Shown: in pieces, positions 5,736 to 31,295 of the stretch | How the letters are laid out: each line of letters opens with the position of its first letter | Numbering within the stretch: the first letter of the stretch is position 1 | Assembly (NCBI GenBank): GCA_026706025.1 | Contig: JAPOZO010000063.1 | Coordinates: 186,001 to 250,000, forward strand | Reading direction: 5' to 3' | Length of the DNA stretch: 64,000 bases | Source of the DNA: Candidatus Poribacteria bacterium | Lineage (GTDB): Bacteria; Poribacteria; WGA-4E; WGA-3G | The notes under the pieces: model-generated | Seen by the model: only the letters and a program-made list of their open reading frames with translations | Told to the model about the DNA's origin: nothing | Database searches by the model: none | Translations under genes and position numbers: made by a program

Positions 5736-5821
5736 GTTGTCAGTCTGCCTGGCAGTGAGAGTGTTCAGTTATCGGCAGCTATGGGAACCATAAACTTCTT
5801 TAACTGGCTACTGATAACTAT
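5736..5821. repeat. Degenerate 'GTTATCAGTTGTCAGTT' MITE-like repeat
   Basis: The ends carry GTTGTCAGT and ACTGATAACT, in inverted orientation, as in the better copies at 6346, 24907, 25174 and 42784. Confidence 0.5.
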
Positions 5822-5874
5822 TTTGTCCGTGCTATGTCAGATTAGACATGTATGAGCAGATTGCGGAGGAAAAT

Positions 5875-6327
5875 GTGAAACCAATTGATTTGAAACAAGC
5901 AGGATTAACATCAATACAAATTTTAGTTGTCGTCGTCGTCCTTGGGATTATTGCCGCTGTGCTTTTCGCACCTCGGTTGCTCGGACAAGCAGGACGTGCG
6001 CTGCAAGCACAAGCCGATGCCGACATTGAAACGCTTGGCATCGCGCTGGATAGATATGCCAAAGATAACGGAGATTATCCGTCAACTGAACAAGGCTTGA
6101 AGGCACTCTGGGAAAAACCTGAGGCACCGCCGATACCTATAAATTGGCTGCTACCCTACATCCAGATCCCAATTACTGAGGATCCGTGGGGGAACCCTTA
6201 TATCTATATCCGTCCCGGCATACACGACCGGTACGGGTACGATCTCATCTCGTTCGGAAGTGATGGTGTTGAAGGCGGAACAGGCGAGGCTGAGGATGTT
6301 GTCAGTTGGATCCGGCGGGATGAATAA
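5875..6327 (+). CDS. GspG-like type II secretion pseudopilin
   Basis: A protein of about 150 residues with an N-terminal hydrophobic helix after a short polar leader and a C-terminal GspG-like region (PSTEQGLKALWEKP, DPWGNPYIY, SFGSDGVEGG) that in GspG binds calcium. I prefer the GTG at 5875, which has GGAGGA four bases upstream and gives a nine-residue leader before G10; the ATG at 5848 is the alternative. The residue five after the predicted cleavage site is Gln (G/LTSIQ) instead of the nearly invariant Glu of pilins. No other secretion genes are nearby, so it is an orphan; the role could be secretion or a pilus-like assembly. Confidence 0.75.
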   Translation: MKPIDLKQAGLTSIQILVVVVVLGIIAAVLFAPRLLGQAGRALQAQADADIETLGIALDRYAKDNGDYPSTEQGLKALWEKPEAPPIPINWLLPYIQIPITEDPWGNPYIYIRPGIHDRYGYDLISFGSDGVEGGTGEAEDVVSWIRRDE

Positions 6328-6345
6328 GTCAGAAGAGTGGTGATT

Positions 6346-6458
6346 AGTTATCAGTTTTCAGCACGATTTTTTTCAAAAAATCTTTCGGTTGTCAGTTAAA
6401 AAAGAAAGTTGACTGAATCATGTCTCCCTCTTTAACTGAAGACCGATAACTGAAAGCT
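6346..6458. repeat. MITE-like repeat, TTATCAG family
   Basis: About 110 bases with inverted ends (AGTTATCAGTTTTCAG on the left, GATAACTGAAAGCT on the right) and an internal stretch AATCTTTCGG that is shared with the copy inside pbpC at 25174-25315. Confidence 0.65.
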
Positions 6459-6475
6459 ATTCCGCGGGGGTGCTT

Positions 6476-7480
6476 ATGAAAATTACGCATATTGACGTTA
6501 TCAAAGTGAAAGTGCCGTATCATGAAGGCATCTACGAGTTGATGACGCGTCGTAATCTGTATCAGATTGATTACGTCTACAAAGTCTATACCGATGTCGG
6601 ACTTGTCGGACTTGGTGACGGTGCACACCAGGCGGACGAAGTCGTTCAACGCTATATCGGCAGAAATCCGTTTGAGTTTATGAACGGTTGGGCACCCACA
6701 CCGCTTCAGCAAGCATTTTACGACATCATGGGCAAAGCACTCGGGGTTCCGGTGCATCGGCTTCTGGGCGAAAAGGTTCACGACAAAACCTCGTTCGGCT
6801 ACTGGTCTATTGACATGACACCAGAGGAGTGGGCAGCAGAAGCGAAACACGCTTACGCCCTCGGCTATCGGCTCCACAAAATTAAGGCACGCCCATGGTT
6901 TGAAGTACTTGAGCAGGTCGAGGCAATCGCCTCTGTTGTGCCGGATGATTATCGGCTCCGCGTTGACGCGAATGACTCGTTTGAGACACCGGAACGCACA
7001 CTTGAGGTTGCGCGCCACCTTCAAGATTACAACATAGAGTCATTTGAAACGCCGATTCCACAAGCCGACATTGAAGGTTATCAAAAAATTAAACGCCAGA
7101 CTGACATGCCGATAACAATCCACTTCGGGAACCCGGATCCGATTGAAGCGATTCGGGCAAAGATGAACGACTCGTTTATTATTGCCTATCCCGACTCACG
7201 CGCTGCCAATGCCAAACGCGAAGCGACTATCTCGAATGCTGCACATCTTCCCGTCTGGATACAGATTGTCGGACTCGGTATCACAACTGCTTACGTCATG
7301 CATCTTGCCGCGGTGATGCCGAATGCCACCATGCCATCGATGACGCTTAATGCCTTGCGAGCCTATGATCTCGTCACACCATCAACGATTCCGCTTGTTG
7401 ATGGGTATGCAACTGTTCCAGATAAACCCGGATTAGGGGTTGAATTGAATGAGGACGCACTTGACAATTGCCGCGTCTAA
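6476..7480 (+). CDS. Enolase-superfamily (mandelate racemase/MLE-like) protein
   Basis: A 334-residue protein with the two-domain enolase-superfamily layout. The KxK catalytic lysines (K135, K137 in HKIKARP) and two metal ligands, D164 (RVDANDSF) and E191 (SFETP), are visible. The expected third acidic ligand is not obvious: its strand reads PITIHFGNP. The enzyme may therefore bind metal differently or have altered chemistry; substrate is probably a sugar acid or similar. The ATG at 6476 follows a GCGGGGG run; a GTG two codons upstream is possible. The next gene's GTG begins 11 bases after its stop, so the two are probably co-transcribed. Confidence 0.8.
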   Translation: MKITHIDVIKVKVPYHEGIYELMTRRNLYQIDYVYKVYTDVGLVGLGDGAHQADEVVQRYIGRNPFEFMNGWAPTPLQQAFYDIMGKALGVPVHRLLGEKVHDKTSFGYWSIDMTPEEWAAEAKHAYALGYRLHKIKARPWFEVLEQVEAIASVVPDDYRLRVDANDSFETPERTLEVARHLQDYNIESFETPIPQADIEGYQKIKRQTDMPITIHFGNPDPIEAIRAKMNDSFIIAYPDSRAANAKREATISNAAHLPVWIQIVGLGITTAYVMHLAAVMPNATMPSMTLNALRAYDLVTPSTIPLVDGYATVPDKPGLGVELNEDALDNCRV

Positions 7481-7490
7481 GGAGGGAGAA

Positions 7491-8291
7491 GTGAAAAGCG
7501 TAATTTCTGTTTGCCAAACGCAAGTTTTCATAGTCATTTTGAGTTTACCAATCCTCATGATCGGGTTCGGTGTTAACGCACACGCTGCAAAACTCGGTTT
7601 GGCGAGTGCTTGGCTCTTTGAGGATAACGGTGGAAAGGTTGCCAAAGATATCGTCAGCGGACACGATGGTGATATTAAGGGTAGCCTTGAATGGGTAAAA
7701 GACGGCAAATTCGGCGGTGCATTGAAATTCCCCGGCAAAGGTGATAGCTACGTCCGTGTTGATCACGACGACGTTTTCAACGCTGATCCCTACTCGTTTG
7801 TCGCGTGGGTGAAATTGGAAAACGCCTCGTGGCAATATGTTGTTTGGCGGAACGGAGATGTCTGGCCCGAACCAGAAAATGTGCGCCATCTTGATATATG
7901 GATTCACACTGACGATTATCCGGTCTTTATGTGGCACGTCAAGGGAAACGTCGGGCGTATTGATGGTAAAACGATCATTGCTGATGGTAAGTGGCATCAC
8001 ATCGCTAAAATCTATGATGGCAAAAACGTTCAGATGTACGTTGATGGAAAAGTAGATGGCGAGAAACCGAGCGGTGGGACGCTGGATACCAGTGAATCCC
8101 CAATCTGGATCGGCGCGCGACCTGGCAATGTTGCTGCAACTGGGCTTTTTGACGAAGTTGGGTTCTTCACCGAAGCACTCTCTGAAGACGAACTCAACAA
8201 TGTCATGGATAATGGGTTAGCTGTTTATGCTGCTGTGGATGCAGCTGGAAAAGCGACGACAACTTGGGCTTTGCTAAAAACAACAAGGTAA
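7491..8291 (+). CDS. Secreted LamG-domain protein with conserved C-terminal motif
   Basis: A Sec signal peptide (about residues 1-33, ending VNAHAA) precedes a concanavalin-like LamG fold of about 200 residues: AWLFEDNGGKVAKD, FVAWVKLEN, DGKWHHIAKIYDG and YVDGKVDG are typical strands. The protein ends with VDAAGKATTTWALLKTTR, a motif shared with three other secreted proteins in this window (20130, 20873, 21778). The GTG at 7491 follows an ideal AAGGAGGGA site, so the upstream 14 codons are not used. LamG domains bind carbohydrates or proteins; the ligand is unknown. Confidence 0.8.
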   Translation: MKSVISVCQTQVFIVILSLPILMIGFGVNAHAAKLGLASAWLFEDNGGKVAKDIVSGHDGDIKGSLEWVKDGKFGGALKFPGKGDSYVRVDHDDVFNADPYSFVAWVKLENASWQYVVWRNGDVWPEPENVRHLDIWIHTDDYPVFMWHVKGNVGRIDGKTIIADGKWHHIAKIYDGKNVQMYVDGKVDGEKPSGGTLDTSESPIWIGARPGNVAATGLFDEVGFFTEALSEDELNNVMDNGLAVYAAVDAAGKATTTWALLKTTR

Positions 8292-12460: not shown

Positions 12461-13177
12461 TTATTTTGTTGAAATTTTAACGGAATACCCACTTTCTGTC
12501 AGTTCCTCTTTGACGCTTATCCCCATAGAACGTAATTCGGCGATCGCCTCAGAATTTATGTTACCAATATCTTCAGGAGAATTACCGCGGGGATACAACC
12601 ACTTATAATAAGCAAGCGTTTTTTTGTTCGTAGAGTTCGGGTAGAGTTTAACAAGTGCCTCTTGATATTCAATTTTTTCGTCCAAAGAGATCGGTGCATC
12701 GCTATCAAACTTTCGGTTAAACTCCATTACCGTATGCACTTCTGGTATATCGCCAAACTCCTCAAGCATTTGGTTTTGTTGAGCATTATACAATTCCTCA
12801 CCCGACGTATCCGCGGTAATCAACGTACCACGCTCTATTGCCTCTTGTAACTCCAGATAATCAGAAAACGGATCGCTACTCTCTTGTTCTAATGTTTCAA
12901 GTGCTGTGTCGTTCTTCCAGTCAAAATCTAAAGGTTTCTCATTATTTTTCGCTGATTCCCGCGACGTTTCTGTGTTCTCACTAACCCGTTCTAAGTGAAA
13001 TGAAGGCACAGGCTTATCAACTTCTAACACACTTGGAACAGTGCTGTCTTGAGGATTCTCTTTAATGGTAGGAGTTTTTGGAAGGCTATCCGCAAAATTG
13101 CGTGTGCTAACTTCGAGATATACACAGAAACCTACCAACACCACGAAAAAAACGCAAACAAAGATCATTGCTTTCAT
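12461..13177 (-). CDS. Membrane-anchored protein with GDIPEVH domain
   Basis: A protein of about 238 residues with an N-terminal transmembrane anchor (MKAMIFVCVFFVVLVGFCVY), a long polar acidic linker, and one copy of a motif region EEFGDIPEVHTVMEFNRK followed by helical sequence ending in a LYPNSTN-like turn. The same region recurs in the two genes upstream. I chose ATG 13177 because TAAGGAA lies eight bases before it; a longer form from 13210 or 13267 would run into the upstream gene. Function unknown. It is the last gene of the minus-strand cluster that begins at 16455. Confidence 0.65.
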   Translation of the reverse strand: MKAMIFVCVFFVVLVGFCVYLEVSTRNFADSLPKTPTIKENPQDSTVPSVLEVDKPVPSFHLERVSENTETSRESAKNNEKPLDFDWKNDTALETLEQESSDPFSDYLELQEAIERGTLITADTSGEELYNAQQNQMLEEFGDIPEVHTVMEFNRKFDSDAPISLDEKIEYQEALVKLYPNSTNKKTLAYYKWLYPRGNSPEDIGNINSEAIAELRSMGISVKEELTESGYSVKISTK

Positions 13178-13220
13178 TTTCAGATTCCTTAAAGATGAAA
13201 ACCCAGTCATAGCTGAGTCT

Positions 13221-13988
13221 TCATTCCTCTTGGTCCTTGCGCCACTCCTCAAGGATTTTTCTCTCATCTACAGACTCGAGTGGCTGCCCATTGGCTTTCG
13301 CCTGTAGATACGCTTCTAAAAATAATCGATTTAGTATGCGGTCAGGTTCTAACTTAAAGAGTGCTTGACGATAAGCAAAGAGTTCATCTATTGTCAAAGG
13401 TTGATTATCTCTGACTTTCATCTCAAAATCTATAACAATTTGAACTTCTGGAATATCTCCGTGCTTTTCTAAAAGTGCAACATGTCTTTCTTTTAAGTCT
13501 TCTATAGTGCCTTTCTTTGTTCGACCACCTTCAAAATCAGCGTGATCTTCGTATTCTGGAAGGTTCTTTATAACCTCGTCAACAAATTTTTTATTATGTT
13601 CATTCGGCCACAGAAAATAGACCGTCCGCGCAAAAGCCAATCCGATCTCGGGCGTTGAAACTTTATTTCTCCGATATTCTATGTAAAATCGGACGTGCGG
13701 CGTATCTCCGTGAGTCTTCAATACTTCCGCCTCAAAGTATTTCTCTAAGAGCTCCGGGTCTTTGGTTTGCCATAAGTCATCCGAGAACTTAAATGTTAAT
13801 AGTTCTTCTACATCACTATCTGTTAACCGGACCCACCCTTTCGGATAGTATTTTATGTCTAAAGAGGGAATAGGCCCCATTGACGACTGACGGGGGACTA
13901 TGGTTTCCGCGGGTGGGTCTGTTTCTCCACAACCGAAAAAAAACGACAAACTGAAGAGACAGATGAGTAAACTGAAAACTGTTTTCAT
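13221..13988 (-). CDS. Lipoprotein with two GDIPEVH-type domains
   Basis: About 255 residues. The start MKTVFSLLICLFSLSFFF ends in a lipobox-like FFGC, so the mature protein should be lipid-anchored. Two copies of the repeated region are visible: KTHGDTPHVRFYIEYRR and EKHGDIPEVQIVIDFEMK, each followed by a helix and a LWPNEHNKK or LEPDRILNR turn. The ATG at 13988 has AAGGAG seven bases upstream, deciding the start over the frame's first codon at 14012. No known family recognised. The repeats and shared operon suggest it works with its two neighbours. Confidence 0.7.
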   Translation of the reverse strand: MKTVFSLLICLFSLSFFFGCGETDPPAETIVPRQSSMGPIPSLDIKYYPKGWVRLTDSDVEELLTFKFSDDLWQTKDPELLEKYFEAEVLKTHGDTPHVRFYIEYRRNKVSTPEIGLAFARTVYFLWPNEHNKKFVDEVIKNLPEYEDHADFEGGRTKKGTIEDLKERHVALLEKHGDIPEVQIVIDFEMKVRDNQPLTIDELFAYRQALFKLEPDRILNRLFLEAYLQAKANGQPLESVDERKILEEWRKDQEE

Positions 13989-14044
13989 GAGAGACTCCTT
14001 AACCAGAAACAAATACTATTATTTAGACAGTGCGCTCTGAAGAC

Positions 14045-14650
14045 CTATTGGTGTTCTTCTACCTTATCCTTTTGAAGGGCTTCAAGGAGTTCTGCGTTTT
14101 TTTCATTCGGCCAAAGGACTTGAGATGCTTCAAGGTACTTGATCCATTGATCATCTGTAATCGGTACTTTTTTTGCTATTTGTAATTTATGTTCCCCGAT
14201 GATGTGAACCTCCGGAATATCACCGAACTGCTTGAGAAGTTGGGCGTAAAAATACTCAGCATGTAATTCAGGATCTTCTGTTTTATACCAATCGCGTGGC
14301 GGATATTTATCATCGGTGTCATCTGTAGATGCCTGCTGTGGATAGGTTTGTTTCCAAGGATCATTCTTTTCAACTGTGGAATCAAATGCGCTATCATCTC
14401 GCCAGTCAACCTCATCATTGCTGGCAGGCGGTAGGGTGCCATGTGGATGATCATGGTCGTGCTCGTGTTGGACAGAGGATTTTGTTCTTTCAGTGTTGGT
14501 TTCAGTTATTGCACGCGTTTTGGGGTTTGGGATTACCATTTTATAGATTTTTATCGGTTCTTGCTGGGTGCGCGTGTTAAAGAAACCAAATCCGCCGATG
14601 CTAAGAACAAAAAGTGCAGCGAGTATCCAATGCCATTTTCGATGAAACAT
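14045..14650 (-). CDS. Membrane-anchored His-rich protein with GDIPEVH domain
   Basis: About 201 residues: an N-terminal anchor (WHWILAALFVLSIGGFGFF), a polar linker with a histidine-rich segment HEHDHDHPHG that could bind metal, and one C-terminal domain copy KQFGDIPEVHIIGEHKLQ followed by VLWPNEKNAELLEAL. The ATG overlaps the stop of the upstream gene (TGATG), indicating translational coupling. Function unknown; the domain resemblance to the next two genes is clear by eye. Confidence 0.7.
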   Translation of the reverse strand: MFHRKWHWILAALFVLSIGGFGFFNTRTQQEPIKIYKMVIPNPKTRAITETNTERTKSSVQHEHDHDHPHGTLPPASNDEVDWRDDSAFDSTVEKNDPWKQTYPQQASTDDTDDKYPPRDWYKTEDPELHAEYFYAQLLKQFGDIPEVHIIGEHKLQIAKKVPITDDQWIKYLEASQVLWPNEKNAELLEALQKDKVEEHQ

Positions 14651-15063
14651 CAAAAAACTCCATGTATTGTTATATTCCGACTCAGGGGTTTTGTGTCACT
14701 ATAGGTGTACTTGGTGGTTTTATACTTTTGTTGACTGAATCCCCAGATAATTCCGAGTGCTGGACATACCCACAAGAAACCTATCATTCCAATTCGGGCG
14801 ACGATAATAACTCTTTCTGCAAGATATTTGTTGTTGGCACCATAGTTTTCTAGTTCCTGCGCGATGCTGTAGAATTCAAGTAGATCGCCATCCATACGTT
14901 CATTCATATAGTAACCTTCAAGATTTTCAAGATTATCTGTCTTCAGATAAAAAATAAAAGGAACTGCTATAAACCATAGGTACCCGACTGCAACGCCGAA
15001 GAAAAACCTAATCAGCAAAATTAATAAAAACAAAAAAGTCGATTTTGACTGCTGCCGGAACAT
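14650..15063 (-). CDS. Small membrane protein, two TM segments
   Basis: 137 residues with hydrophobic segments at about 9-40 and 90-112 and a polar middle part (TDNLENLEGYYMNERMDGD) that would face one side of the membrane. No family recognised. No clear ribosome-binding site before ATG 15063. Its stop overlaps the start of the next gene, which supports that it is real. Confidence 0.6.
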   Translation of the reverse strand: MFRQQSKSTFLFLLILLIRFFFGVAVGYLWFIAVPFIFYLKTDNLENLEGYYMNERMDGDLLEFYSIAQELENYGANNKYLAERVIIVARIGMIGFLWVCPALGIIWGFSQQKYKTTKYTYSDTKPLSRNITIHGVF

Positions 15064-15139: not shown

Positions 15140-15685
15140 TTAATTGACATCGGCGGTAGATTCATATCCAGGGTCACTTCCAGAACCAGAACCAGAACCA
15201 GAACTAAGGGTTTGGTCGATACTCCCTCTTGCCCTGCCGCGAGAGAATTGTCTCCTTACATCGTCTGCATCCCAATATCTGAGTTTCTCGGCTGCGGCAC
15301 CCTTGCGCTCGTCATAGTACTTATCCGTTAGAGATTTACTCGCCCGTAGAGACCATTTAATAATTCCCGTACGGCGTGGTGTAGTTTCCGCCATTACGTC
15401 TATGGAGTATTCCCCTTCATGATGGAATCCCCAATCAGCATGGACTTTAGCATACGCTACAATTTCTATACCCTTTTTCCAAGCAAAGGGTTCGCCTGGG
15501 TAATCCACGTCAATCTGAACATGTGCTTTGGTTTCTAAAGTGCCTTCTGAATCTTCTGATCTACGGGTGCCAAACTTTTCGCTCTTTGAAAATGAATCTT
15601 CATTGTCTTTGTCACGGTTGTATGCCCAAATGGACGTTCCTCCGAGAAGTCCAAGTAGTAGGACGTAGGACAGTATACGTTTCAT
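15140..15685 (-). CDS. Secreted protein of unknown function with GS-rich tail
   Basis: 181 residues with an N-terminal signal or anchor (MKRILSYVLLLGLLGGTSIWA), then a beta-rich region (HVQIDVDYPGEPFAWKKG, IEIVAYAKVHADWGF) and a Gly-Ser tail SSGSGSGSGSDPG. The tail is encoded by a short tandem hexamer array (GGTTCT on the minus strand, about 15177-15206), a likely length-variable microsatellite. A GGAGGA site lies directly before ATG 15685, eight bases after the upstream stop. Function unknown. Confidence 0.65.
   Translation of the reverse strand: MKRILSYVLLLGLLGGTSIWAYNRDKDNEDSFSKSEKFGTRRSEDSEGTLETKAHVQIDVDYPGEPFAWKKGIEIVAYAKVHADWGFHHEGEYSIDVMAETTPRRTGIIKWSLRASKSLTDKYYDERKGAAAEKLRYWDADDVRRQFSRGRARGSIDQTLSSGSGSGSGSDPGYESTADVN
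15177..15206. repeat. GGTTCT hexamer microsatellite
   Basis: About four near-perfect hexamer units encode the GS repeats at the C-terminus of the secreted protein. Confidence 0.6.
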
Positions 15686-15693
15686 ATTTCCTC

Positions 15694-16455
15694 CTAAGGT
15701 AAATTCAAAAATGTATAGGGATTGATTCCTCCATCTTCGTAAGTAACAATTTTAATGTCTGATGGAATGTCTGCCTCGGTAAAATCATCACCTTTCACTT
15801 CTATGATGTTTTCAAGACGATCACAAGCGTCCGGATCTCCTGCGATTTCAGATATGTATCGGTCACCTGTTTCACCATCCCATCTGATGTAGACTGTATT
15901 ATCAATCGTTGGGTATACCAGACCATTTTCCATTGTTGCTCCGAAGGCATTTTTTCCTTGAGAGATAAGTTTTATCTGAACTCGAAGCATTAATTCATGA
16001 TCCGCAGATTTCCGAGGCCATATATCAGCTGGCCACCCTTCTGGGAGTTCGGGATAAGGTCCAAACCCATAGGGTGAGACGGAGATATCTTCAACCGGTT
16101 CTTCCGATGAAACTATGTCATCGGGTAAGAACGCATCTTCTGCCACTTCAAGTAAATCCGCCTCATTAGGGAACGCTGTGATTTCCTCTGGTATCTCACT
16201 GGCTGTTTTGGTGTTTTCCACTGATGTTTCTACAAGGTTGTCATCGGTTTCGTTCGCGTTCTGAGCGTTAACCGCTTCTGCTCGGCGTATCTTGTTCTGT
16301 TTTTCAAGTCCCGGCAACAACTGATCATGCTGTTCTAACTCGGCTTCACTGGTGCGTTGGACGTGCCAACTATACAGCAGGCTCCCACCGACAACCACAA
16401 CAAAGAAAATGAGTCCAACTTGGATCAATCTGTTTGAGAGTAAACCACGGAACAT
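15694..16455 (-). CDS. Membrane-anchored protein, first gene of the sigma-54 operon
   Basis: 253 residues: an N-terminal transmembrane segment (LIQVGLIFFVVVVGGSLLY), a charged coiled-coil-like stretch, a Pro-rich segment (SPYGFGPYPELPEG) and a C-terminal globular part with WDGETGDRYISEIAG. No family recognised. It is the first gene after the sigma-54 promoter at 16554-16570, and is followed without a gap by the secreted GS-tail protein. Confidence 0.65.
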   Translation of the reverse strand: MFRGLLSNRLIQVGLIFFVVVVGGSLLYSWHVQRTSEAELEQHDQLLPGLEKQNKIRRAEAVNAQNANETDDNLVETSVENTKTASEIPEEITAFPNEADLLEVAEDAFLPDDIVSSEEPVEDISVSPYGFGPYPELPEGWPADIWPRKSADHELMLRVQIKLISQGKNAFGATMENGLVYPTIDNTVYIRWDGETGDRYISEIAGDPDACDRLENIIEVKGDDFTEADIPSDIKIVTYEDGGINPYTFLNLP

Positions 16456-16553: not shown

Positions 16554-16570
16554 TAGCAAGTATCATGCCA
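16554..16570 (-). promoter_or_regulatory. Sigma-54 promoter
   Basis: The minus strand reads TGGCATGATACTTGCTA, matching TGGCAC-N5-TTGCW with the GG and GC elements 12 bases apart. It lies about 100 bases upstream of the gene starting at 16455, and a sigma-54 activator gene ends just upstream at 16771. Confidence 0.7.
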
Positions 16571-16632: not shown

Positions 16633-16671
16633 TGGGCATATTTTTCCACAGAACTGGTTAAAATATGCCCA
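16633..16671. promoter_or_regulatory. Inverted repeat, likely activator-binding site
   Basis: TGGGCATATTTT and AAAATATGCCCA are perfect 12-base inverted arms separated by 15 bases. It sits about 65-100 bases upstream of the sigma-54 promoter, where enhancer sites for NtrC-type activators lie. Confidence 0.65.
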
Positions 16672-16770: not shown

Positions 16771-17799
16771 TTACGCGTTATAGTCGTGTAACTTTTTGTG
16801 CAAGGTACGCCGATGTATCCCGAGGGTCTTCGCCGTTTTTGACTTATTCCCATTCTCTCGCGCTAAGGTTGCCAAGATGGCTGACTTCTCTATCTCTTTC
16901 AAAGTTGTCCCCGTCGGAAAGGGCAGCACGAAACGTTCTCCGGCGTTAGGGTTTGCTGCGGCTGTTGCATCCGCCAACGGCAATGCGTGGACTTGAGGCA
17001 TCCGCACATCTTGTGGTAAGTGGTGCGGTAAGATTTCACCCCCTTCCGCTAAGAGGACGGCGCGACTTATGATGCCTTCCAACTCTCGGATATTGCCGGG
17101 CCAGCTGTAGGCATCAAATAACGAGAAGACTTCTGGATTTATATCTTCTATCTTTTGATTGGAAGAGTTGGCTTCCTTTTTCAAAAAGTGTGTTGCCAAC
17201 GCGGGAATGTCTTCCCGCCGCTCCCGTAACGCCGGCAGCTGGATATGAAGCGGTTTCAATCGCTCATAGAGATCTCGGCGAAACTTGCCTGCTGCAACCG
17301 CTTCTATAAGGTCGATATTTGTAGCTGCAAGGACGCGCACTTTCACTGGAATCTGTTTTGTCCCGCCCATGCGGCGAATCTCGTTTTCCTGAAGGACCCG
17401 CAACAACTTTGATTGTAGAGGTTTGGGAAGTTCCCCGATTTCGTCAAGGAAGAGTGTGCCTCCCGATGCGGTTTCAAATAGCCCGATATGTCGCTGATCG
17501 GCACCAGTAAACGTACCCTTCTCATGTCCAAAGAGTTCACTTGCTATCAGGTTCTCCGCAATCTCCGCACAGTTCACGACGACCAGAGGGTGCATTGCAT
17601 AAAGGTTCTCTGCGTGCAAAGCACGCGCGACCAGTTCTTTGCCTGTTCCTGTCTCGCCAGAAATAAGCACTATTTTAGCAGATTTTGCGAACGTGTCAAT
17701 ACGTTTCAGCACTTTAAGATGCGCTGGACTCTCACCGATAATATGGGCGTAATTCCCATGCAACTTCTCTCTTGATAACAGCATTTCGGACGGTGCCAC
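16771..17799 (-). CDS. Sigma-54-dependent transcriptional activator (AAA+, no receiver domain)
   Basis: 342 residues: a central AAA+ sigma-54 activation domain with Walker A GETGTGKE (48-55), the sigma-54 contact loop GTFTGA (95-100, usual form GAFTGA), Walker B GGTLFLDE (113-120), and a C-terminal Fis-type helix-turn-helix (KTAKTLGIHRRTLHKKL). There is almost no N-terminal sensor domain, as in PspF, so control may come from a partner protein or from expression level. It starts at GTG 17799; ATG 17784 is possible. The adjacent sigma-54 promoter and inverted repeat make the 16455-12461 operon its probable target. Confidence 0.88.
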   Translation of the reverse strand: MAPSEMLLSREKLHGNYAHIIGESPAHLKVLKRIDTFAKSAKIVLISGETGTGKELVARALHAENLYAMHPLVVVNCAEIAENLIASELFGHEKGTFTGADQRHIGLFETASGGTLFLDEIGELPKPLQSKLLRVLQENEIRRMGGTKQIPVKVRVLAATNIDLIEAVAAGKFRRDLYERLKPLHIQLPALRERREDIPALATHFLKKEANSSNQKIEDINPEVFSLFDAYSWPGNIRELEGIISRAVLLAEGGEILPHHLPQDVRMPQVHALPLADATAAANPNAGERFVLPFPTGTTLKEIEKSAILATLARENGNKSKTAKTLGIHRRTLHKKLHDYNA

Positions 17800-18671: not shown

Positions 18672-19649
18672 CTACTGTGACGCCGTAGACAGTGCAATGC
18701 CGATAGTAAGTATACTGTCGGTGGCAACATCTTCAATATTTGAGCCATCGAGGTTGGCACGCTGAACCTTATATTTATGTGGAGTTGTCCAATATATTTT
18801 TCCGCCCGAAGTGTCTAAGGCAATACCAATCGGACTATTCGCATAATATATTTTTAGCCCTAAAATATCTAAGGGGATATTTATGGCAGTACCGATAAGT
18901 TTGCCATATCTAACAAAGAGAGTCTTGCGATTTGAACCATCGAGATTCGCAGACTGGATTTTACCGCTGAACTCATCTGCCCAATAAATTTTATTTCCAT
19001 CCAAGTCCAGAGCGATCCCGTTTGGACCCAATAAAGCAGTGATGATGTCTTCAACATCTGAACCATTGAGATTTGCACGTTGAATCTTACTGGCACCAAG
19101 GTCTGCCCAGTACATTTTCCCATTGGGAACATCCAAGGCGATGCCACGTGGACTTTTCAAATCGGTAATAATGTCTTCAATGTCTGACCCATCAAGGTTG
19201 GCACGTTGAATCTTATTCGGCGTAGCGTTCCAGACGGTCCAGTACATCTTATTTCCATCAATATCCAGTGCAATGCCTTCCTTTATGCCTTTACTGGACG
19301 GAACCAGTTCCTCAACGTTTGAGCCATCCAAGTTGGCACGTTGAATCTTACAGCCGCTCGTCCAGTACATCTGACCGCCGAGAATGTCTAATGCTATACC
19401 AATTGGAGAGCATACGTCAGTAGTGAGGTTTTCAATGTCTGAGCTATCGGAGCGAATGCGCTGAATTCTACCCGATCTGTTTGTCCAATAGATTCGGACA
19501 TCGTAGGGGCGATGTGCCCTCGCCCCTATAACAGATGATTCTTCAGATAATACCTCATGTGACATTTTCTCGTCTTTTTCATAAACGAGAAAAAAAATGA
19601 CACATCCAGTTCCAATTAAAACGATAGCAAGTATTGATTTTTTTACCAT
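18672..19649 (-). CDS. Exported YWTD (LDL-receptor class B) beta-propeller
   Basis: 325 residues. An N-terminal anchor or lipoprotein signal (ILAIVLIGTGCVIFFLVY) is followed by about six YWTD-type repeats, e.g. MYWTSGCKIQRANLDGS and KIYWADEFSGKIQSANLDGS, each with the GIALD turn. Such propellers bind proteins extracellularly. Near the N-terminus the segment VIGARAHRPYD is encoded by a dispersed hairpin repeat (19504-19528) that was inserted in frame. The promoter candidate (19789-19818) is separated from the gene by MITE copy B. Confidence 0.8.
   Translation of the reverse strand: MVKKSILAIVLIGTGCVIFFLVYEKDEKMSHEVLSEESSVIGARAHRPYDVRIYWTNRSGRIQRIRSDSSDIENLTTDVCSPIGIALDILGGQMYWTSGCKIQRANLDGSNVEELVPSSKGIKEGIALDIDGNKMYWTVWNATPNKIQRANLDGSDIEDIITDLKSPRGIALDVPNGKMYWADLGASKIQRANLNGSDVEDIITALLGPNGIALDLDGNKIYWADEFSGKIQSANLDGSNRKTLFVRYGKLIGTAINIPLDILGLKIYYANSPIGIALDTSGGKIYWTTPHKYKVQRANLDGSNIEDVATDSILTIGIALSTASQ
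19504..19528. repeat. 'GTAGGGGC' hairpin repeat inside a gene
   Basis: TAGGGGCGA and TCGCCCCTA pair perfectly around TGTGCCC. It is related to the intergenic hairpin at 8318 and lies in the coding sequence of the YWTD protein. Confidence 0.65.
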
Positions 19650-20129: not shown

Positions 20130-20804
20130 ATGAAGCAGCTAAACGTTCAGTGCCTTTGTATATGTATCTGTTTCGCTTTCATATTAGCGATACACCCAGC
20201 ATTAGCGATTCGTTACGAGTTTGATAGCGAGAAGGAGATTGCGGATTGGGAACTCGGGCCGCAGGCGACAGCGAAGGTCAAAGATGGTATGCTTGAACTT
20301 ACTGTTGCCGGTGGGCAGAATTCGGGTATCTATTTCGGCGAAGATAACTGGAGTGATTACCGGATGGAAGTCAAAGCCCGGAAACTGGTTGGTCCCTATT
20401 TCCACCTGTTCGCACGGGTGCAGGAACCGGCAGTAGATTTCTATTTCATGGAAATCAGTTATAACTCGCATACCACTTCTCTGTTCATGTTTAGTGGTGG
20501 CGCTGCAAATGAGATTACGGGCGGTCCCCGCCCGAAACGTCCTGATTCAAAGGACGCCAAAGGTGGCGATTCCTATACCATTGTTTTTGAAACGGAAGGG
20601 GAAACCCTCAGAACCTACATTGATGGGAAATTGATGGTTGAAAACCAGGATAAGACCTACGATAAAGGTCGTCCGGGTTTAGGGGGCAGGGATTCAACTG
20701 TCCTCTATGAGTACGTAGAAATTAACGGTGAAGGTATCCCGCCGACAGCCGTTGAACCCGTTGACAAGTTAGCAACTATGTGGGGTGAATTGAAAGGTAG
20801 ATAA
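20130..20804 (+). CDS. Secreted LamG/DUF1080-like protein with C-terminal motif
   Basis: 224 residues: a signal peptide (about 1-26, ending HPALA), then a jelly-roll of concanavalin type with FGEDNWSDYRMEVKARK, YTIVFETEGETLRTYIDGK and GRPGLGGRDS, similar to 3-keto-disaccharide hydrolase (DUF1080) and LamG proteins. No clear catalytic residues could be placed. It ends in AVEPVDKLATMWGELKGR, the shared tail motif. A TAAGGAGAA site precedes the ATG. First of three consecutive genes with this tail. Confidence 0.75.
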   Translation: MKQLNVQCLCICICFAFILAIHPALAIRYEFDSEKEIADWELGPQATAKVKDGMLELTVAGGQNSGIYFGEDNWSDYRMEVKARKLVGPYFHLFARVQEPAVDFYFMEISYNSHTTSLFMFSGGAANEITGGPRPKRPDSKDAKGGDSYTIVFETEGETLRTYIDGKLMVENQDKTYDKGRPGLGGRDSTVLYEYVEINGEGIPPTAVEPVDKLATMWGELKGR

Positions 20805-20872: not shown

Positions 20873-21721
20873 GTGAAAAGACTGGTTACTCTTTTTTTTC
20901 TCACAGCTTTGATTTCTACTCAGGTTGAAGCCAATTTCAATTTCGCACTTCACACGGACGCGCATCCGTGGGCGCGTGAAGATGCCAAGGGCGCACAACA
21001 GGAAATTGATAACTTAATCAAAATTCTTAAAGGAGTAAACTTGGAGGTTTTTGAACCAAAAGATATTGACGGGTTGGCGACTTGGGTTAAAGCACATACC
21101 GATGGTGGTGGAAATACCTTGATTCTGACAGGTATCACCCCTTCAACGATCTATCCACCCGACAACGCGAAACCTGATGGTTCGATTCTCGAAGAGTTTC
21201 TGGATGCCGGTAATACGATTTTCAATACGGGTGAATATACCTTTTATACATCGGAAGGCCCCGCAGAAACGAACGGACAAAATGGATTACCCAATATCAT
21301 TGATGTTCCAGAAGCCTTCGTGTGGCAGGCCAGAGGCCCGGACGCTTGGCAGCCCAATCCAGTTGAAATGACTCCGACACAGGAGGGCAAAGACCATATA
21401 CCAAGTCTGAAAAAGTATAATACCTCTTATCCGTTCCACATAGAGGATTACGAGAAAACGCCATGGAAGTTAGAGATCGCGCTCGCTGAAAATAAGGATG
21501 AAGATTATCGGGTTGACCCTGCTGTGATATTCAACGAAGACACCGGGGGCCGCCTCGGTATCTTCCTTCAGGTCTATGTCGGCGATGTCCCACATCCCGG
21601 GGTTTCATGGAGCGATATTATGGGTGAATTCATTGTTAACTACTATGTGCCAGAGGTTCTATCCGTTGAACCGATCGGTAAATTAACCACTACTTGGGGA
21701 GAGTTAAAGTCCCCATATTGA
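20873..21721 (+). CDS. Secreted protein of unknown function with C-terminal motif
   Basis: 282 residues starting at GTG with TAGGAGGAAAG upstream. A signal peptide (about 1-20, ending STQVEA) is followed by an alpha/beta domain: ALHTDAHPWAREDAKG, ILTGITPSTIY, EEFLDAGNTIFNTGEYTF and GRLGIFLQVYVGD suggest a ThuA/class I amidotransferase-like fold, but no catalytic triad was identified. The end VEPIGKLTTTWGELKSPY is the clearest copy of the shared tail motif. Function unknown. Confidence 0.7.
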   Translation: MKRLVTLFFLTALISTQVEANFNFALHTDAHPWAREDAKGAQQEIDNLIKILKGVNLEVFEPKDIDGLATWVKAHTDGGGNTLILTGITPSTIYPPDNAKPDGSILEEFLDAGNTIFNTGEYTFYTSEGPAETNGQNGLPNIIDVPEAFVWQARGPDAWQPNPVEMTPTQEGKDHIPSLKKYNTSYPFHIEDYEKTPWKLEIALAENKDEDYRVDPAVIFNEDTGGRLGIFLQVYVGDVPHPGVSWSDIMGEFIVNYYVPEVLSVEPIGKLTTTWGELKSPY

Positions 21722-21777: not shown

Positions 21778-22554
21778 GTGGTTTCCCTCAAAAAAAAGAT
21801 GAGACAATTTGTTTGTTTTTTCGCAGTAGCAGTATTCTTGATAAGTTGTCTGCTCGCGCATGCAGCGGATCCAGACAAAGATTTACTAATCTACATACCT
21901 TTTGATGAAGGAGAGGGAAATAAGGCAGGCGATGTCGGACCTAACGGTTTCACAGGCGACATCAAGAACGCGAAATGGGTAGAGGGGGTCGTCGGGCAAG
22001 CACTCCATTTTAACAATGGAAGCGTTAACTTTGATCCGCTCAAAATTGATCAACCGAAAGAAATGACGATTGAGTTTTGGTTCAAACCCGACGAGAAAAT
22101 TGAGGGTGGTAACCGTATTGATCTGCTATATCGTTTGAATGGTGGCGGACGACCGCATATTACGTTCAACCGTGGCGGCATTTTGTTCGGCTTCTATTTT
22201 GCAACGCAAGGCGTAGAATTGCCGATACACACGACTTATGATGTGTTTGAACCGGAGTGGTACTACTTTGTCGGGTCACAGAGCAAACAGATCGCATGGA
22301 TGTATATTAACGGAGAGCTTGATGCCGAGGCGAAAGCCGGTGGAGATGCACGTATGGATTTCGGAACCCAAGGGATGTGCATCGCAGCGAGTCAAGGCAA
22401 CGGCAATTTCTTCAACGGTGTCATTGATGAATTTAAGATGTGGAGTGTTGCTCTCACAGCGGAGGAGGTCAAAGCCAACATGGAAAAAGCCCTCGCTGTG
22501 GAAGCGGATGGCAAATTAACGACAACTTGGGGCAAACTCAAGTCGGATTTATAG
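21778..22554 (+). CDS. Secreted LamG-domain protein with C-terminal motif
   Basis: About 258 residues: a signal peptide (MRQFVCFFAVAVFLISCL then LAHA), a LamG domain (LLIYIPFDEGEGNKAGD, MTIEFWFKPDEK, WMYINGELDAEAKAG, GVIDEFKMWSVALTAEE) and the tail VEADGKLTTTWGKLKSDL. The start is uncertain: GTG 21778 or ATG 21799; neither has a strong site, while a GGAGGAAA at 21728 is followed by a short blocked frame. Carbohydrate or matrix binding is likely for the LamG part. Confidence 0.75.
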   Translation: MVSLKKKMRQFVCFFAVAVFLISCLLAHAADPDKDLLIYIPFDEGEGNKAGDVGPNGFTGDIKNAKWVEGVVGQALHFNNGSVNFDPLKIDQPKEMTIEFWFKPDEKIEGGNRIDLLYRLNGGGRPHITFNRGGILFGFYFATQGVELPIHTTYDVFEPEWYYFVGSQSKQIAWMYINGELDAEAKAGGDARMDFGTQGMCIAASQGNGNFFNGVIDEFKMWSVALTAEEVKANMEKALAVEADGKLTTTWGKLKSDL

Positions 22555-22623: not shown

Positions 22624-25323
22624 TTAAAAAACTGAAATGTGGAGGGGACGACTTGCTGAACGCCCCTCCGCATCCACACAAGTAATCACGTGTTCCCCTT
22701 TGATAGGGGTCAACCAGTACGGCTGTTCAGCATTCCCCTTAAAAATCAATTCACCATCCAGAAACCAGAATAACTCCTGTGTCCGATTGGACGCTGAGGC
22801 TGACAATTGTATTTTTTGCTGCGCTAATGGGACCCCATCGCGTATGTAGTACACAGTATCTTCTGTGGGAGATAGGATGACCGGGGCAGTCCCTGCAATT
22901 GTGCCTGTACACAAGGGGTTGTGTGCTGGGAGCACTGGCATAGCAAATCCATTTTTTGCAAGCCAAGTCGCTGCCTCGGCGGGCCATTCTTCAAATATTT
23001 TCGTCTGTAGGTTTGTGTCATGTTGGCGAGACGCGTCTTGAGAATGGTTTTCTCCTGTTGTCGGCAGGTTCCGGCAGTGGGAACAGAGACTGTATCCGGT
23101 AACTTCATCGACATAGATGCGTTTGTGAATCACGCAGGCTTTAACAGGTGAAATACCGGGGATATATACATCGTTTTTACGAGTGGGACAGTGTGGTGAA
23201 GGAGGCGCACCTGTGAGTGCACAGACCTCTCGCGTTTTGAGTTGTTCAGGTGTTGTATACCAACGGTGTGTATCTTGTCCTGTGAGTGCTGTGAAGAGTG
23301 CGAACAGAACAGGCGTTGCTGCGTCTGTGCCGCTCAACATCGGAGCACCTTTTCCGTCAAAATTGCCGAGCCACACACCGATTGTTAATTTCGGTGAATA
23401 CCCGATACACCACGCGTCCCGATGTCCATAAGAGGTACCAGTTTTCCATGCAATCTTCGGTAGATTCATGGTCATTTCAAAGGCTTCTGGATTTTTAACA
23501 GTGTTGACCGGTAGTTGTGAGGTTGTTAGCATCTCCGTTATAATGAAACTCGTCTCTTCTCGGAGTAAACGTTGTGAATAGGCTTTAGCCTTCAGCCATC
23601 GGGAACCTTCAGCAAGAAGATTTTCTGATTGATGACCACTGATAACTATTTGGTAAGGCGCGAATTCTCCCATATTTGCCAGCCCCGCGTAAAGTGTTGT
23701 CAACTCCAGCAGATTCACTTCGCAGCCACCGAGAACCATGGAGAGTCCATACTTTTTGCCGGATGCGAGTGTAGAGATACCTGCTCGTTTCAGAAAAGCG
23801 TGCAGGGTTCTATTTTTCAGCCGCGCATGAAGATTCACAGCGGGGACATTGAGGGAGCGAGCAAGTGCCTGACGAGCCGTAACGTAGCCATTATAGGTGC
23901 TATCATAGTTCACCGGTTCATATCCCTTGTATGTAACAGGAACATCAAAGAGCAGTGTTTCTGGTGTAATCAAGCCTTGTTCGATGCCAAGGGCGTAGAC
24001 GAAAGGTTTAAGTGTGGAACCTGGAGAACGCGGGGCGAGTGTGCCGTTTATCTGACCCAATGCACGCTGATCGAAAAAATCGTGAGAACCTACCATTGCC
24101 AAGACTTGGCGGCTTTGGGTGTCCATAACGACGATGGCACCTGTGCTTGCGGTATGGGGTTGCAAGCGGCGGGAGTCTGCGATTCCAGCAGCGGACGCAT
24201 TCAGGTATTCGCGAAGGATACGCACTGCCGTTTCTTGTACCTTCGCGTCTATTGTCGTGTATATCCTGCCATCTGCTGCCCCTTTCCAGTAACGGGTGGG
24301 GCCCCTGGTTTCTGTGTTCCATCGGTTTCCCTTAACCAATAGGCGTGAGAGATGTGGTGCTTTGAATGGGAGCGGGTAACGTTTTGTCGGTATAGGTTCT
24401 CGCAATGCCTCTTGCCACTGCTGTTCGGAAATCTGTCCGCGTGCGCGGAGGCGGTCCAGGACTTTTGCTCGCGCATGCCGGGCATTTTCTGGAAATCTGT
24501 CTGGACGTAAACGTTCTGGCGCGTTCGGAATGGCAGCAAGGAGAGCCGCCTCACCGAGACTTATTGCGTGCTGCGGTTTGTTGAAATAAAATCGGGACGC
24601 TGCCCCTGTTCCAACGATATTCCCACCGTAGGGAAGCATGTTAAAGTAAAAGTTTAGGATATCAGGTTTAGAATACGCCAGTTCAAGTTGGATTGCACGG
24701 AACATTTCAATCAGTTTGCTCGGAACAGTTCGTGCTTTCGGTTCCATCAGTCGGGCAAGCTGCATGGTGATGGTTGAGCCGCCGCGCACAACCTCTCCTG
24801 CTTTGACATTATCATAGAGGGCGGTTGCCATAGACACCGGATTGATCCCGCAGTGGTAGTAAAACCATCTGTCCTCCGCTGTTAGCATTGCTTCGTGTAG
24901 CCAAGGGCTTTCAGTTTTCGGTTTTCGGTTATCAGTTGAAGAGGGATCCTGCTCGACCAAATCACCTCTTAACTGATGACTGATGACTGATGACTGATGG
25001 CTAAAGCGCCACATACCATCCTCAGCTAAAAACGCGCGAAGCCATTCTCCGTTCCGATCTAAGACAATCCGAGAGGGTGGTGGGTGGAGACGTGCTTTGG
25101 GCAGCGGGAAACACCAATTCATGATCGTAAACAGGACAATAATAGAGAGAGGCAAAGTAGCCATCAGGCGAATAGTTATCCGTTGTCGGTACGATTTTTT
25201 CTCCGAAAAAATCTTTCGGTTTTCAGTTAAAGAGGTTTGCTGTTGCTTGAACAGTAGTTTTAACTGCGAGAAGAATCCTCTTAACTGATAACTGATAACT
25301 GATAACTGACAACTATTTTTCAT
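22624..25323 (-). CDS. pbpC: Penicillin-binding protein 1C (with repeat-derived insertions)
   Basis: 899 residues. A membrane segment (about 55-70) precedes a GT51 glycosyltransferase domain (EDRWFYYH near 150, GGSTITMQLAR), a transpeptidase domain with STLKP (near 436), SLN and KTGTS (near 626), and a C-terminal BiPBP_C domain ending ASRPLHISVF. The protein polymerises and may cross-link peptidoglycan in the periplasm. It overlaps the upstream alpha-2-macroglobulin gene by ATGA, the usual pbpC-yfhM pairing. Two MITE copies are inside the frame, at residues about 3-50 and 107-139, making it about 100 residues longer than usual. ATG at 25164 could be the original start region. Confidence 0.9.
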   Translation of the reverse strand: MKNSCQLSVISYQLRGFFSQLKLLFKQQQTSLTENRKIFSEKKSYRQRITIRLMATLPLSIIVLFTIMNWCFPLPKARLHPPPSRIVLDRNGEWLRAFLAEDGMWRFSHQSSVISHQLRGDLVEQDPSSTDNRKPKTESPWLHEAMLTAEDRWFYYHCGINPVSMATALYDNVKAGEVVRGGSTITMQLARLMEPKARTVPSKLIEMFRAIQLELAYSKPDILNFYFNMLPYGGNIVGTGAASRFYFNKPQHAISLGEAALLAAIPNAPERLRPDRFPENARHARAKVLDRLRARGQISEQQWQEALREPIPTKRYPLPFKAPHLSRLLVKGNRWNTETRGPTRYWKGAADGRIYTTIDAKVQETAVRILREYLNASAAGIADSRRLQPHTASTGAIVVMDTQSRQVLAMVGSHDFFDQRALGQINGTLAPRSPGSTLKPFVYALGIEQGLITPETLLFDVPVTYKGYEPVNYDSTYNGYVTARQALARSLNVPAVNLHARLKNRTLHAFLKRAGISTLASGKKYGLSMVLGGCEVNLLELTTLYAGLANMGEFAPYQIVISGHQSENLLAEGSRWLKAKAYSQRLLREETSFIITEMLTTSQLPVNTVKNPEAFEMTMNLPKIAWKTGTSYGHRDAWCIGYSPKLTIGVWLGNFDGKGAPMLSGTDAATPVLFALFTALTGQDTHRWYTTPEQLKTREVCALTGAPPSPHCPTRKNDVYIPGISPVKACVIHKRIYVDEVTGYSLCSHCRNLPTTGENHSQDASRQHDTNLQTKIFEEWPAEAATWLAKNGFAMPVLPAHNPLCTGTIAGTAPVILSPTEDTVYYIRDGVPLAQQKIQLSASASNRTQELFWFLDGELIFKGNAEQPYWLTPIKGEHVITCVDAEGRSASRPLHISVF
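24907..25003. repeat. TTATCAG-family MITE inside pbpC
   Basis: Ends GCTTTCAGTTTTCGG and ACTGATGACTGATGG are inverted; the copy is read in frame as a Ser/Gln-rich loop (SHQSSVISHQLRGD...) just before the glycosyltransferase domain. Confidence 0.7.
25174..25315. repeat. TTATCAG-family MITE at the start of pbpC
   Basis: About 142 bases with inverted ends AGTTATCCGTTGTCGG and four tandem ACTGATA units; read in frame it encodes residues about 3-50 of PBP1C. Confidence 0.75.
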
Positions 25324-28300
25324 TGCTCTGCAACCACTTGGATACTCATACTACCCGTTACAGCAGATTTTGTCGGATCGTACATCGCTTCTGCTGCGAT
25401 GGGTGGTAAAGTAAAGTCACCTTGTGTGACAGCCCTTAGCGCGTAATAGAATTTACGTTCGCGTTGGCGCGGGAACGTCCCGAAGAAGATAAGACGATCA
25501 TCGCGAATGTCAATATAATCGGGTTTGAAACCTTGCGCTTTCAGCCATGGAATGCCTGCTCGGGACTCCAGACGCGGGTTCTCAATCTCAAAACCTGTTG
25601 GTAACATATCGACCACGACGACATTTTCCAGATTCGCCGTCAGGGCTTTAACTGTTATCTCCGCGACGATTAAGTCGCCGTGTACAAATGTGCCCGTGAG
25701 ACTTTCACCATCTTTGTTAAAATATCGACGACGTACCTGTAATTCACGTTCATATTCTTCAATGAAGGAGTCGCGTTGGATACCAAACGCACTCCAGTAA
25801 TAGTAGCAACTCCCTTCGCCTTTGACGGTGAGTTGTATGCGTGCACCGTCCCATGCTTCATCGGTATAGCGCGTCTCGGTCGCGTCAAAATCTGCGAAGT
25901 GTTCACCGTTGAGTTTGAGAGTGCCACTGTAATTCCGATCTGCCTGTTTCTTCATAATTTTACCGAGAGCAAGGAACGCAAAGGCATTATCTTGTGTTGT
26001 CCGCCATCGGTTTCCGTCGGAGGCTGCCTCACTCAGATTCTTAACGAGCATCGGAATAGATGGATGGTTTTCGTTAACTTCAGCAAGCACGTCCAACATA
26101 ATCGCTTGGGCACGAATAGGTGAGTTAAATGTCCCCCCGGTTTCCCATCCCGGGTTGCTTTTACCATTAAAACTTGGCGATACCGATACAGGTAACATGG
26201 AAAGAGCAGTTTCCAGTTCGCCGCTGAGGGCAAACGCCCCAGCAAGTTGAAAGTGACTATAATCACTGAGACTGCTGGCACCCCTGTTTTTTAGATAGTG
26301 CATCGTACCACGGTCGGGTTGTCCAGCAGCTGCCAAGACATAGGACGCATAGGTTGCGAGCGCGATGTTTGCTTTTACCTGTTTAGCATTATTGTTGCCT
26401 TCTATGTCGGGTGAAAATTTTGCCCGTGTACTTAAACCTTCCAGCATCGCATCGTAAACACGGTCTGCTACCTCGTACCCGGCTTTTCGGGCTTCAACGA
26501 GAAAATGGGACGCGTAGATACTGCTCCACGGATTCACGTAAGTGCCGCCGGGCCAGTATGAAAAGTTATTGTTCGACATCAGCATACTTTCAAGTTTCGT
26601 GATACCCGATGTGATGTAGTAGTCCACCGAATCTTCTGCTGCCAGCATCGGTTCGACACTTCGCGCCAAATCGCTGAAATAGAGCAAGGGGAAAACCTTA
26701 CTTGTTGTCTGCTCCAGACATCCGTGTGGGTAGCGGACAAGATAGCGGAGGCTATCCGAAAACGCAATATTGGGAAACGGTGATAGTGTCAAACTAAACT
26801 CCGACGAGTTTGCTATTAGGTTTGCGGGGAGAATAAAATCAACCGATTTACCCGCATGTACCACCCCGTGCCCTGTTTTTGTGACCGGTGGTGCCACAGA
26901 TCGCAGCGGCAGTTTCACGTCTATTTGCGTTGTTTCAGTGTTCCCTTCTGCGGATAGATTAAAATCTACTTTTCCTATTGCATCCTGAGCACGAATGTCG
27001 AAAAAGACTTGTGCCTCTGTGCCTGCCTCAACTTTTTTATCAACGCTGAGTTCATGCAGCAGCGGTTCCGTTTTTGACGGTTGTGATGGATTTTCTGGGG
27101 TCTTCTCAGTCATCGTATCAGAAGGATTGATGGCACTCGCTGACAGTAGTTGCACGTCCCCTGATGCTTGCAATTTGACGGTGAATTCTCCATCCGCACC
27201 TGTGCCGTTAAAAAGGGTGACTGGGACACGGATCTTATCACCGCCTGCGAGGAATCGTGGGAAAGTCGGTGTTAGGACAATAGGTTCGCGGACAGTCAAG
27301 TAGGCTGCCGTCGCGCCGTAATCTGCTCCGGCGAGAGCGACTGCCATCAACCTCAATTTCCCATTGAACTGTGGAATCTTGAATTGGACAGTCCCGCGTC
27401 CATTTCCATCGGTTTGTACGAATCCTGACCAAAGTGAAACCGGTTTTACGCGCCTGATACTGCTCGTATTCAGCCGCTTCCTTCCCAATCCGCGTGCGCT
27501 TGCTCCATCACCGCCCGTACTTGAGTTGTCGGTGACATCCGCGATTTCAGGTAGAATCCCACTATACAGATCAAAGGCGCGCGTCTTCAACCCGCGTTGT
27601 TGATAGAAAAAGTCGTGAGGGTTAGGTGTTTGGAAGTCGGTTAATGCGAGGATTCCCTCATCAACAGCTGCTATACAGACATCATATTTCTGCCAGGAGC
27701 GTCTGCCGTGGACCTCGAACGCGATGTTTATTTCGCTGTTTGGATGAACAACAGTTTCAGATTCGCTATCGGGAACCATCAGCCCTCGGTTATCGGTAAG
27801 AGGTGTTCGTTCTTGCTGATTGCTATCAGGCTTGAGCGACATTTCAATTGAGAGTCGTCTCCGCGTTGCATCTATTTTCAAAGGTATCACACCAAACGCG
27901 CGTGCCGGGAGAAGCGATTTGTTGTCTGGTTGTGAGCCCGTATCCGTCGGGACAGCTCGCGTCAGGGTTGCTGAGAGGTAGACGTTCGGTTTGTAACCTT
28001 CACGGACCGGAATTGACAAAGTTGCTGTATTTTCCTTTATTACTATTGTTCGGTGACTGAGCACCCGTTCTCGTTCGACAGTGAGCAGAAGCGTCCCTGG
28101 GAAGGGTGCCTTAATATTCAGTTTTGCTGTCTGTCCTGGACGATAGGCGGGCTTATCAAGCACCAAGTCTAATCGGGTAGGATGCTCCATAGAGACTGAA
28201 GTGTTGCGCCATCCACTCACGTAGAACCCTATTTCCGCTGCTGCCGTTGATTCGATGTCCTCAAGGCGAACGCGATATTCACCATAGCCCGTAGGGGTAA

Positions 28301-31004: not shown

Positions 31005-31295
31005 GAGAAGTGCCTCCTTTACTTTACGGTTTTGTCCTTATCGGTTTTCTTGTTTGGAACGGTTTAAGGACTATTTGTAGAGAAATCTTCTGTTTAAAAC
31101 GTTTTTTATCTACTCCGATAGGTTTAACGAATATAGTAGGAAAAAGATACTGGATAGGTTAAGCAATTTTCATGCCAAAGTTTTGGGGGCTTTGTGCTAA
31201 GCGTTTAAGAAGCGATAGTCGGATTTAGGCAGGGTTCAAGCGCGTGAGAAAAAGATGAGGAAAGTGTCTTTAAGTGGCGTTATGTGTAAATATAA

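Follow-up and report, generated by a model that had tools for sequence, protein, structure and literature searches.

Three adjacent genes in a 64,000-nt stretch of Candidatus Poribacteria DNA, analysed here at its full length and called the window, encode anchored envelope proteins that share a short motif, which raises the question of what the motif belongs to and what these proteins do. An earlier note had described the motif as a new repeat domain. Indeed, the four segments it quoted are in frame on the minus strand of the three genes (12461-14653), and the anchors differ as it had claimed, with a transmembrane (TM) anchor in genes A and C and the lipobox FFGC in gene B. The motif is real, but the conserved unit is longer, covering ~70-75 residues and four helices. 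The proposed L-x-PN is present in three copies (LYPN, LWPN and LWPN), but the second gene B unit has LEPD in its place. The term repeat suits gene B, which has two units, but there are only one or two units in each protein, and the second lipoprotein unit did not arise by recent tandem copying but forms a separate subfamily of old origin. These genes belong to a family of membrane- or lipid-anchored envelope proteins with a common, previously undescribed four-helix domain of ~75 residues, which has so far been found only in Poribacteria.

The three genes are the last of a six-gene operon in the order D, E, F, C, B and A, which runs from 16455 to 12461 on the minus strand with successive gaps or overlaps of 8, 76, -4, 32 and -47 bp (Table 1). 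Gene B was classed as a lipoprotein by eye and regular expression, from a hydrophobic stretch followed by FFGC-GE; its relatives have LTGC, FSGC or LSGC. In many loci of the family a TM-protein gene adjoins a lipoprotein gene, and their called ends often overlap by one base. This tight gene coupling and the differing anchors are consistent with the multi-protein surface or periplasmic assembly that had been suggested. Beside the operon lies a gene for a protein with LDL-receptor class B repeats (18672-19649), which are a reported feature of Poribacteria (PMC3909097).

Table 1 Features of the operon and its upstream region, in window positions
Feature	Position	Strand	Description
Sigma-54 activator, stand-alone	16771..17799	-	Pfam Sigma54_activat (9.7e-65), AAA_lid_14, HTH_8
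Inverted repeat TGGGCATATTTT-N15-AAAATATGCCCA	16633..16671	-	perfect 12-nt arms; candidate activator-binding enhancer, ~100 bp upstream of the -24 box
Sigma-54 -24/-12 promoter TGGCATGATACTTGCT	16555..16570	-	exact consensus; 99 bp before gene D as called
Gene D	15694..16455	-	253-aa TM-anchored protein without four-helix unit; has relatives in or next to further loci of the family
Gene E	15140..15685	-	181-aa protein with signal peptide; relatives near operons of the same family (L072, L088)
Gene F	14650..15063	-	137-aa membrane protein; 4-bp overlap with the start of gene C
Gene C	14045..14653	-	TM anchor, His-rich linker HEHDHDHPHG, one C-terminal unit
Gene C unit KQFGDIPEVHIIGEHKLQ	14069..14275	-	profile i-E 5.5e-30; model pLDDT 92, four helices
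Gene B	13221..14012	-	lipoprotein with two units; ATG at ~13988; lipobox FFGC
Gene B first unit KTHGDTPHVRFYIEYRR	13566..13760	-	profile i-E 9.5e-22
Gene B second unit EKHGDIPEVQIVIDFEMK	13305..13493	-	profile i-E 1.7e-20; type-2 clade, support 98/95
Gene A	12461..13267	-	TM anchor, one unit, ~46-residue C-terminal extension, no His-rich linker; 47-bp overlap with the end of gene B
Gene A unit EEFGDIPEVHTVMEFNRK	12602..12799	-	profile i-E 7e-24

The iterated profile of 69 positions (~70-75 residues with flanks) gave the consensus DPELrAkYxxAqLIkQFGDIPEVhxxxExxxK...TxDExxaYxxAxyxLwPN...LExxrK. In the summary alignment Gly18 is invariant, and Pro21, Val23 and Leu54 are each conserved at 90% or more; P-x-x-W-x-x-T often precedes first units. 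The strongest conservation falls on residues that appear to cap helices or pack in the core. The family alignment contains no His, Cys or Ser that is conserved, which suggests that the unit has a role in binding or structure and is not an enzyme.

The E-values of the window units in Table 1 come from an iterated profile that itself includes the window copies; the reality of the family rests independently on its recurrence, both in its own genome (assembly of 6.27 Mb in 103 contigs), where the profile finds 15 units spread over 10 genes and 6 loci, and across the phylum. A profile built from the copies, a check put forward in the earlier note, found the unit in 50 of 84 Poribacteria genomes. 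Within the window's genus 37 of 38 genomes contain it, and in the two further genera of the family, counted from rows, 2 of 2 and 9 of 18 do; the remaining families of the order contribute 2 of 14, and the 12 genomes beyond the order none. A species-wide scan, in which 84,980 species were represented by one genome each, returned 39 loci, all in Candidatus Poribacteria, with a single conserved pattern that distant relatives elsewhere could escape. A viral origin was rejected, since none of the 25 pattern matches on viral contigs encoded a relative. Poribacteria are best known as sponge symbionts and are among the dominant bacteria of many sponges; we know of no cultured member. One part of the phylum, Entoporibacteria, is sponge-associated, as opposed to its free-living relatives (PMC8546597).

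Structure prediction, also put forward earlier as a check, yielded four helices: AlphaFold2 on 80 aligned units placed them at residues 5-20, 24-37, 44-57 and 61-74 with a mean pLDDT of 92, and the two-unit model of gene B consists of two four-helix groups (pLDDT 80) with a low-confidence linker between them. The claim that the libraries contain no such domain is supported. No Pfam or NCBIfam model matched at cut-off, PDB sequences gave no match, Foldseek returned nothing at E < 0.001, and no confident known-domain match emerged from these searches or from VIA; a confident TPR or DUF match, named beforehand as the opposing outcome, did not appear in Pfam, NCBIfam, PDB sequences or the fold search. 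Weak HEPN matches in 3 units (best E 0.024) were taken as chance. Since none of the libraries searched contains the four-helix domain, genes encoding it would be annotated as hypothetical; 'GDIPEV' was not found in the literature searched.

The absence of a fold match is no proof of a new fold, and judging from the predicted model the unit may be TPR-like. It could be a strongly diverged helical-hairpin pair of TPR/HAT type, in which case the proteins would be ordinary TPR-like adaptor lipoproteins and TM proteins. Like TPR/HAT repeats, the unit is all-helical, its four helices forming two stacked hairpins, and among the repeat domains reported for Poribacteria, TPRs rank first in frequency (PMC3909097). 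Moreover, a designed TPR appeared in the sequence-profile search at E 4.9, and a second structural aligner listed the TPR domain of KLC1 first. However, this best structural match (Z 4.4, rmsd 5.3 Å over 72 residues) is within noise for helical folds, and TPR models matched none of the 53 units searched, even with E values up to 1 allowed. The hairpin period of the predicted model is 37-39 residues rather than the 34 of TPR, and profile-profile comparison with the TPRs of the window, in which the TPR template was thin, gave a probability of 0.1%. The conserved GDIPEV loop and the one or two units per protein are further differences from TPR/HAT repeats. A diverged TPR is an explanation that we consider unlikely.

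Two-unit members of the family are mostly lipoproteins, whereas most one-unit TM proteins have a His-rich linker. Among one-unit proteins with long N-termini, such a linker (five or more His in 15 residues) occurs in 14 of 25, compared with 2 of 359 other ORFs, and one of these two is a small secreted protein upstream of the TM/lipoprotein pair of L106. A few TM proteins, such as gene A and its close relatives, have no such linker. Outside the window, many loci encode a small secreted His/Cys protein (families 3 and 18) next to the pair, and most small secreted neighbour proteins contain 3-7 Cys and 3-8 His. These proteins and the HDHxHSH-type linkers would fit periplasmic metal handling, in which the linker of gene C and the small secreted proteins bind metal and the four-helix domains serve as carriers or docking parts. 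Yet His and Cys are not conserved in the domain, genes A and B have no His clusters, and no metal transporter was recognised among the listed neighbours, a minority of which were scanned. Metal handling is in our view unlikely.

In the tree, a single clade (98/95) holds 31 of the 33 second units of lipoproteins and is separate from first units and the units of TM proteins, indicating that the split between the two unit types is ancient. Gene C is nearly identical to its relatives in L076 and L072 from DWRDD onward, whereas its anchor and linker have strongly diverged, and this mosaic suggests an exchange of anchoring parts. An exchanged N-terminal anchor and linker could also be expected of a diversifying, bacteriocin-like family of secreted peptides and membrane immunity proteins, with the small secreted proteins as effectors and the TM protein and lipoprotein as protective partners; the recurring order of small secreted protein, TM protein and lipoprotein and the several paralogous loci per genome are in line with it. 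However, no toxin family matched at cut-off, and the unit of gene C, conserved and slowly evolving (99% identical to that of L076), is unlike the diversification of immunity proteins. We consider this explanation very unlikely.

The window operon appears to have a dedicated sigma-54 regulator that activates it. The promoter search found 2 sigma-54 sites in the window against 0.05 expected. Across the genome the consensus TGGCAYRNNNNTTGCW occurs 71 times compared with 3 for the reversed control (58 and 5, respectively, in G005), including sites before genes that we take, from their start sequences, to be glnA, groES, dnaK, clpB and hsp20 genes, and the genome encodes rpoN (PF04552, 8.4e-59). 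The activator has a PspF-like architecture, in which an AAA+ domain preceded by ~19 residues is joined to a Fis-type HTH without a sensor domain. Several related loci also have inverted repeats upstream, at a distance of ~95-105 or 205-226 bp. Of the 36 clusters with at least 1 kb of upstream sequence, 14 have a sigma-54 site no more than 2.5 kb away, against 0.5 expected, and 9 have both a site and an activator upstream of it. Stand-alone lipoprotein loci mostly have no sigma-54 promoter, so control by sigma-54 does not extend to all members of the family.

As in PspF-type regulation, a sensor-less activator is encoded in the window beside the -24/-12 promoter that it presumably serves, and the target genes are envelope genes; unlike in PspF-type systems, the targets are not Psp proteins. 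Membership of the PSP system was rejected because the four PspA/IM30-like genes over cut-off are all on contigs other than that of the window (C32 and C72, the window being on C63). The promoter pattern of the clusters agrees with the role of sigma-54 as a controller of the bacterial exterior, for which sigma-54 promoters before lipoprotein and envelope genes were likewise described (Francke et al. 2011, PMC3162934), although the genes controlled here form an undescribed, phylum-specific family. Orphan lipoprotein families that are confined to one lineage and controlled by known regulators are already a known kind. The second perfect sigma-54 promoter of the window (31162-31177, minus strand) is 157 bp before a gene for an alpha-2-macroglobulin-like protein of 1894 aa (25320-31004); the gene after it is PBP1C-like.

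In one subtype of the family, an STT3 gene directly follows the TM/lipoprotein pair (L079, L087, L089 and L106), and among the listed places STT3 and the unit adjoin in G005, G017, G019, G073 and G074, some of which are likely the same genomes as those of the L loci. PF02516 matched over cut-off for L089, L182, L183 and L185 (46-64 bits, cut-off 24.5); the STT3 of L106 had no Pfam match at 0.1 but matched NCBIfam TIGR04154 at 1.6e-10. Similar sigma-54 loci have STT3 without the four-helix domain: L181, L182 and L183 of the window's own genome also contain an activator and small secreted proteins, and L185 has a sigma-54 promoter with no activator seen. The proteins of the family could assist or partner a bacterial oligosaccharyltransferase (OST) of the STT3 type and so help to glycosylate or display small secreted proteins. 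As in STT3/PglB/AglB loci, true STT3 homologues are present beside the subtype concerned; unlike in those loci, the domain next to them is not a known OST subunit, and it is absent beside most STT3 copies. Neither the window operon nor most loci of the family have an STT3 neighbour, and among the STT3 proteins inspected the WWDYG motif is intact only in L183, with WDYG, WIYG or WSFG in the others. The secreted neighbours and the four-helix family contain no excess of N-x-S/T sequons, so glycosylation of either is unsupported, and N-glycosylation of the secreted neighbours was rejected. We consider a partnership with STT3 quite unlikely.

STT3-type oligosaccharyltransferases themselves occur in 68 of 84 Poribacteria genomes with up to 12 matches per genome, and in the window's own genome on contigs C10, C20, C34, C63 and C72; to our knowledge, so many copies are unusual for bacteria. 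In L183, three tandem genes between the STT3 gene and the sigma-54 activator encode small secreted Cys-containing proteins of 85-89 aa (5785-6051, 6219-6473 and 7006-7260 of that locus), and Cys-rich small proteins are also encoded near the STT3 genes of L182 and L185.

The reading that we prefer, at slightly less than an even chance, is that the operon encodes a sigma-54-controlled, lineage-specific envelope complex with the four-helix domain as its non-catalytic binding module. The domain, anchors, gene coupling, promoter, activator and His clusters are evident from the sequence. On strong sequence evidence, the dedicated activator would turn on all six envelope genes in one step. One product of the operon would be anchored in the inner membrane through a single N-terminal helix and extend a terminal four-helix domain on a flexible linker (His-rich in gene C), and the co-encoded lipoprotein, as its anchor and gene coupling indicate, would carry two such domains. 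The domain is probably a non-catalytic module, since the residues conserved most strongly (Gly, Pro, Val and Leu) are structural and there are no conserved candidate catalytic residues. For docking, membrane bridging, metal binding and purpose, we infer that the units may bind one another or a shared partner, by which the inner-membrane protein and the lipoprotein would form a trans-envelope or surface assembly, that the His-rich linker may bind a transition metal stabilising or gating this assembly, and that its role is probably envelope or surface remodelling in sponge-associated bacteria. Gene A and its close relatives, having no His-rich linkers, count against this reading, as do the stand-alone lipoprotein loci without the promoter and the failure to recognise a metal transporter among the listed neighbours, a minority of which were scanned. 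With little confidence, the picture may be extended to a new, phylum-specific envelope machine of sponge-associated Poribacteria in which His-rich inner-membrane tethers and co-encoded lipoproteins dock via the new four-helix domain, bridging the two membranes or displaying surface proteins, and which exists in several parallel copies, each with its own sigma-54 activator and some coupled to STT3.

The family provides a concrete, regulated, lineage-specific envelope module in a phylum that is prominent in many sponges. With the sigma-54 motif and the profile, genes otherwise called hypothetical become a regulon that is open to testing, for which existing metatranscriptomes of sponges are suitable.

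A separate motif was observed at the C-terminus of secreted proteins, several of them LamG-like, which have in common the tail KL(A/T)TTWGxLK. In the window they are encoded at 7449-8291 and 20130-20804 (both with variants of the tail), 20873-21721 and 21778-22554, and elsewhere in L186-L197. 'TTWG' together with Poribacteria was not found in the literature searched. The codon pattern of TTWGxLK occurs 51 times in the genome and not once in the reversed control, and all 15 examined occurrences are within 17 codons of a stop, suggesting a possible sorting tail.
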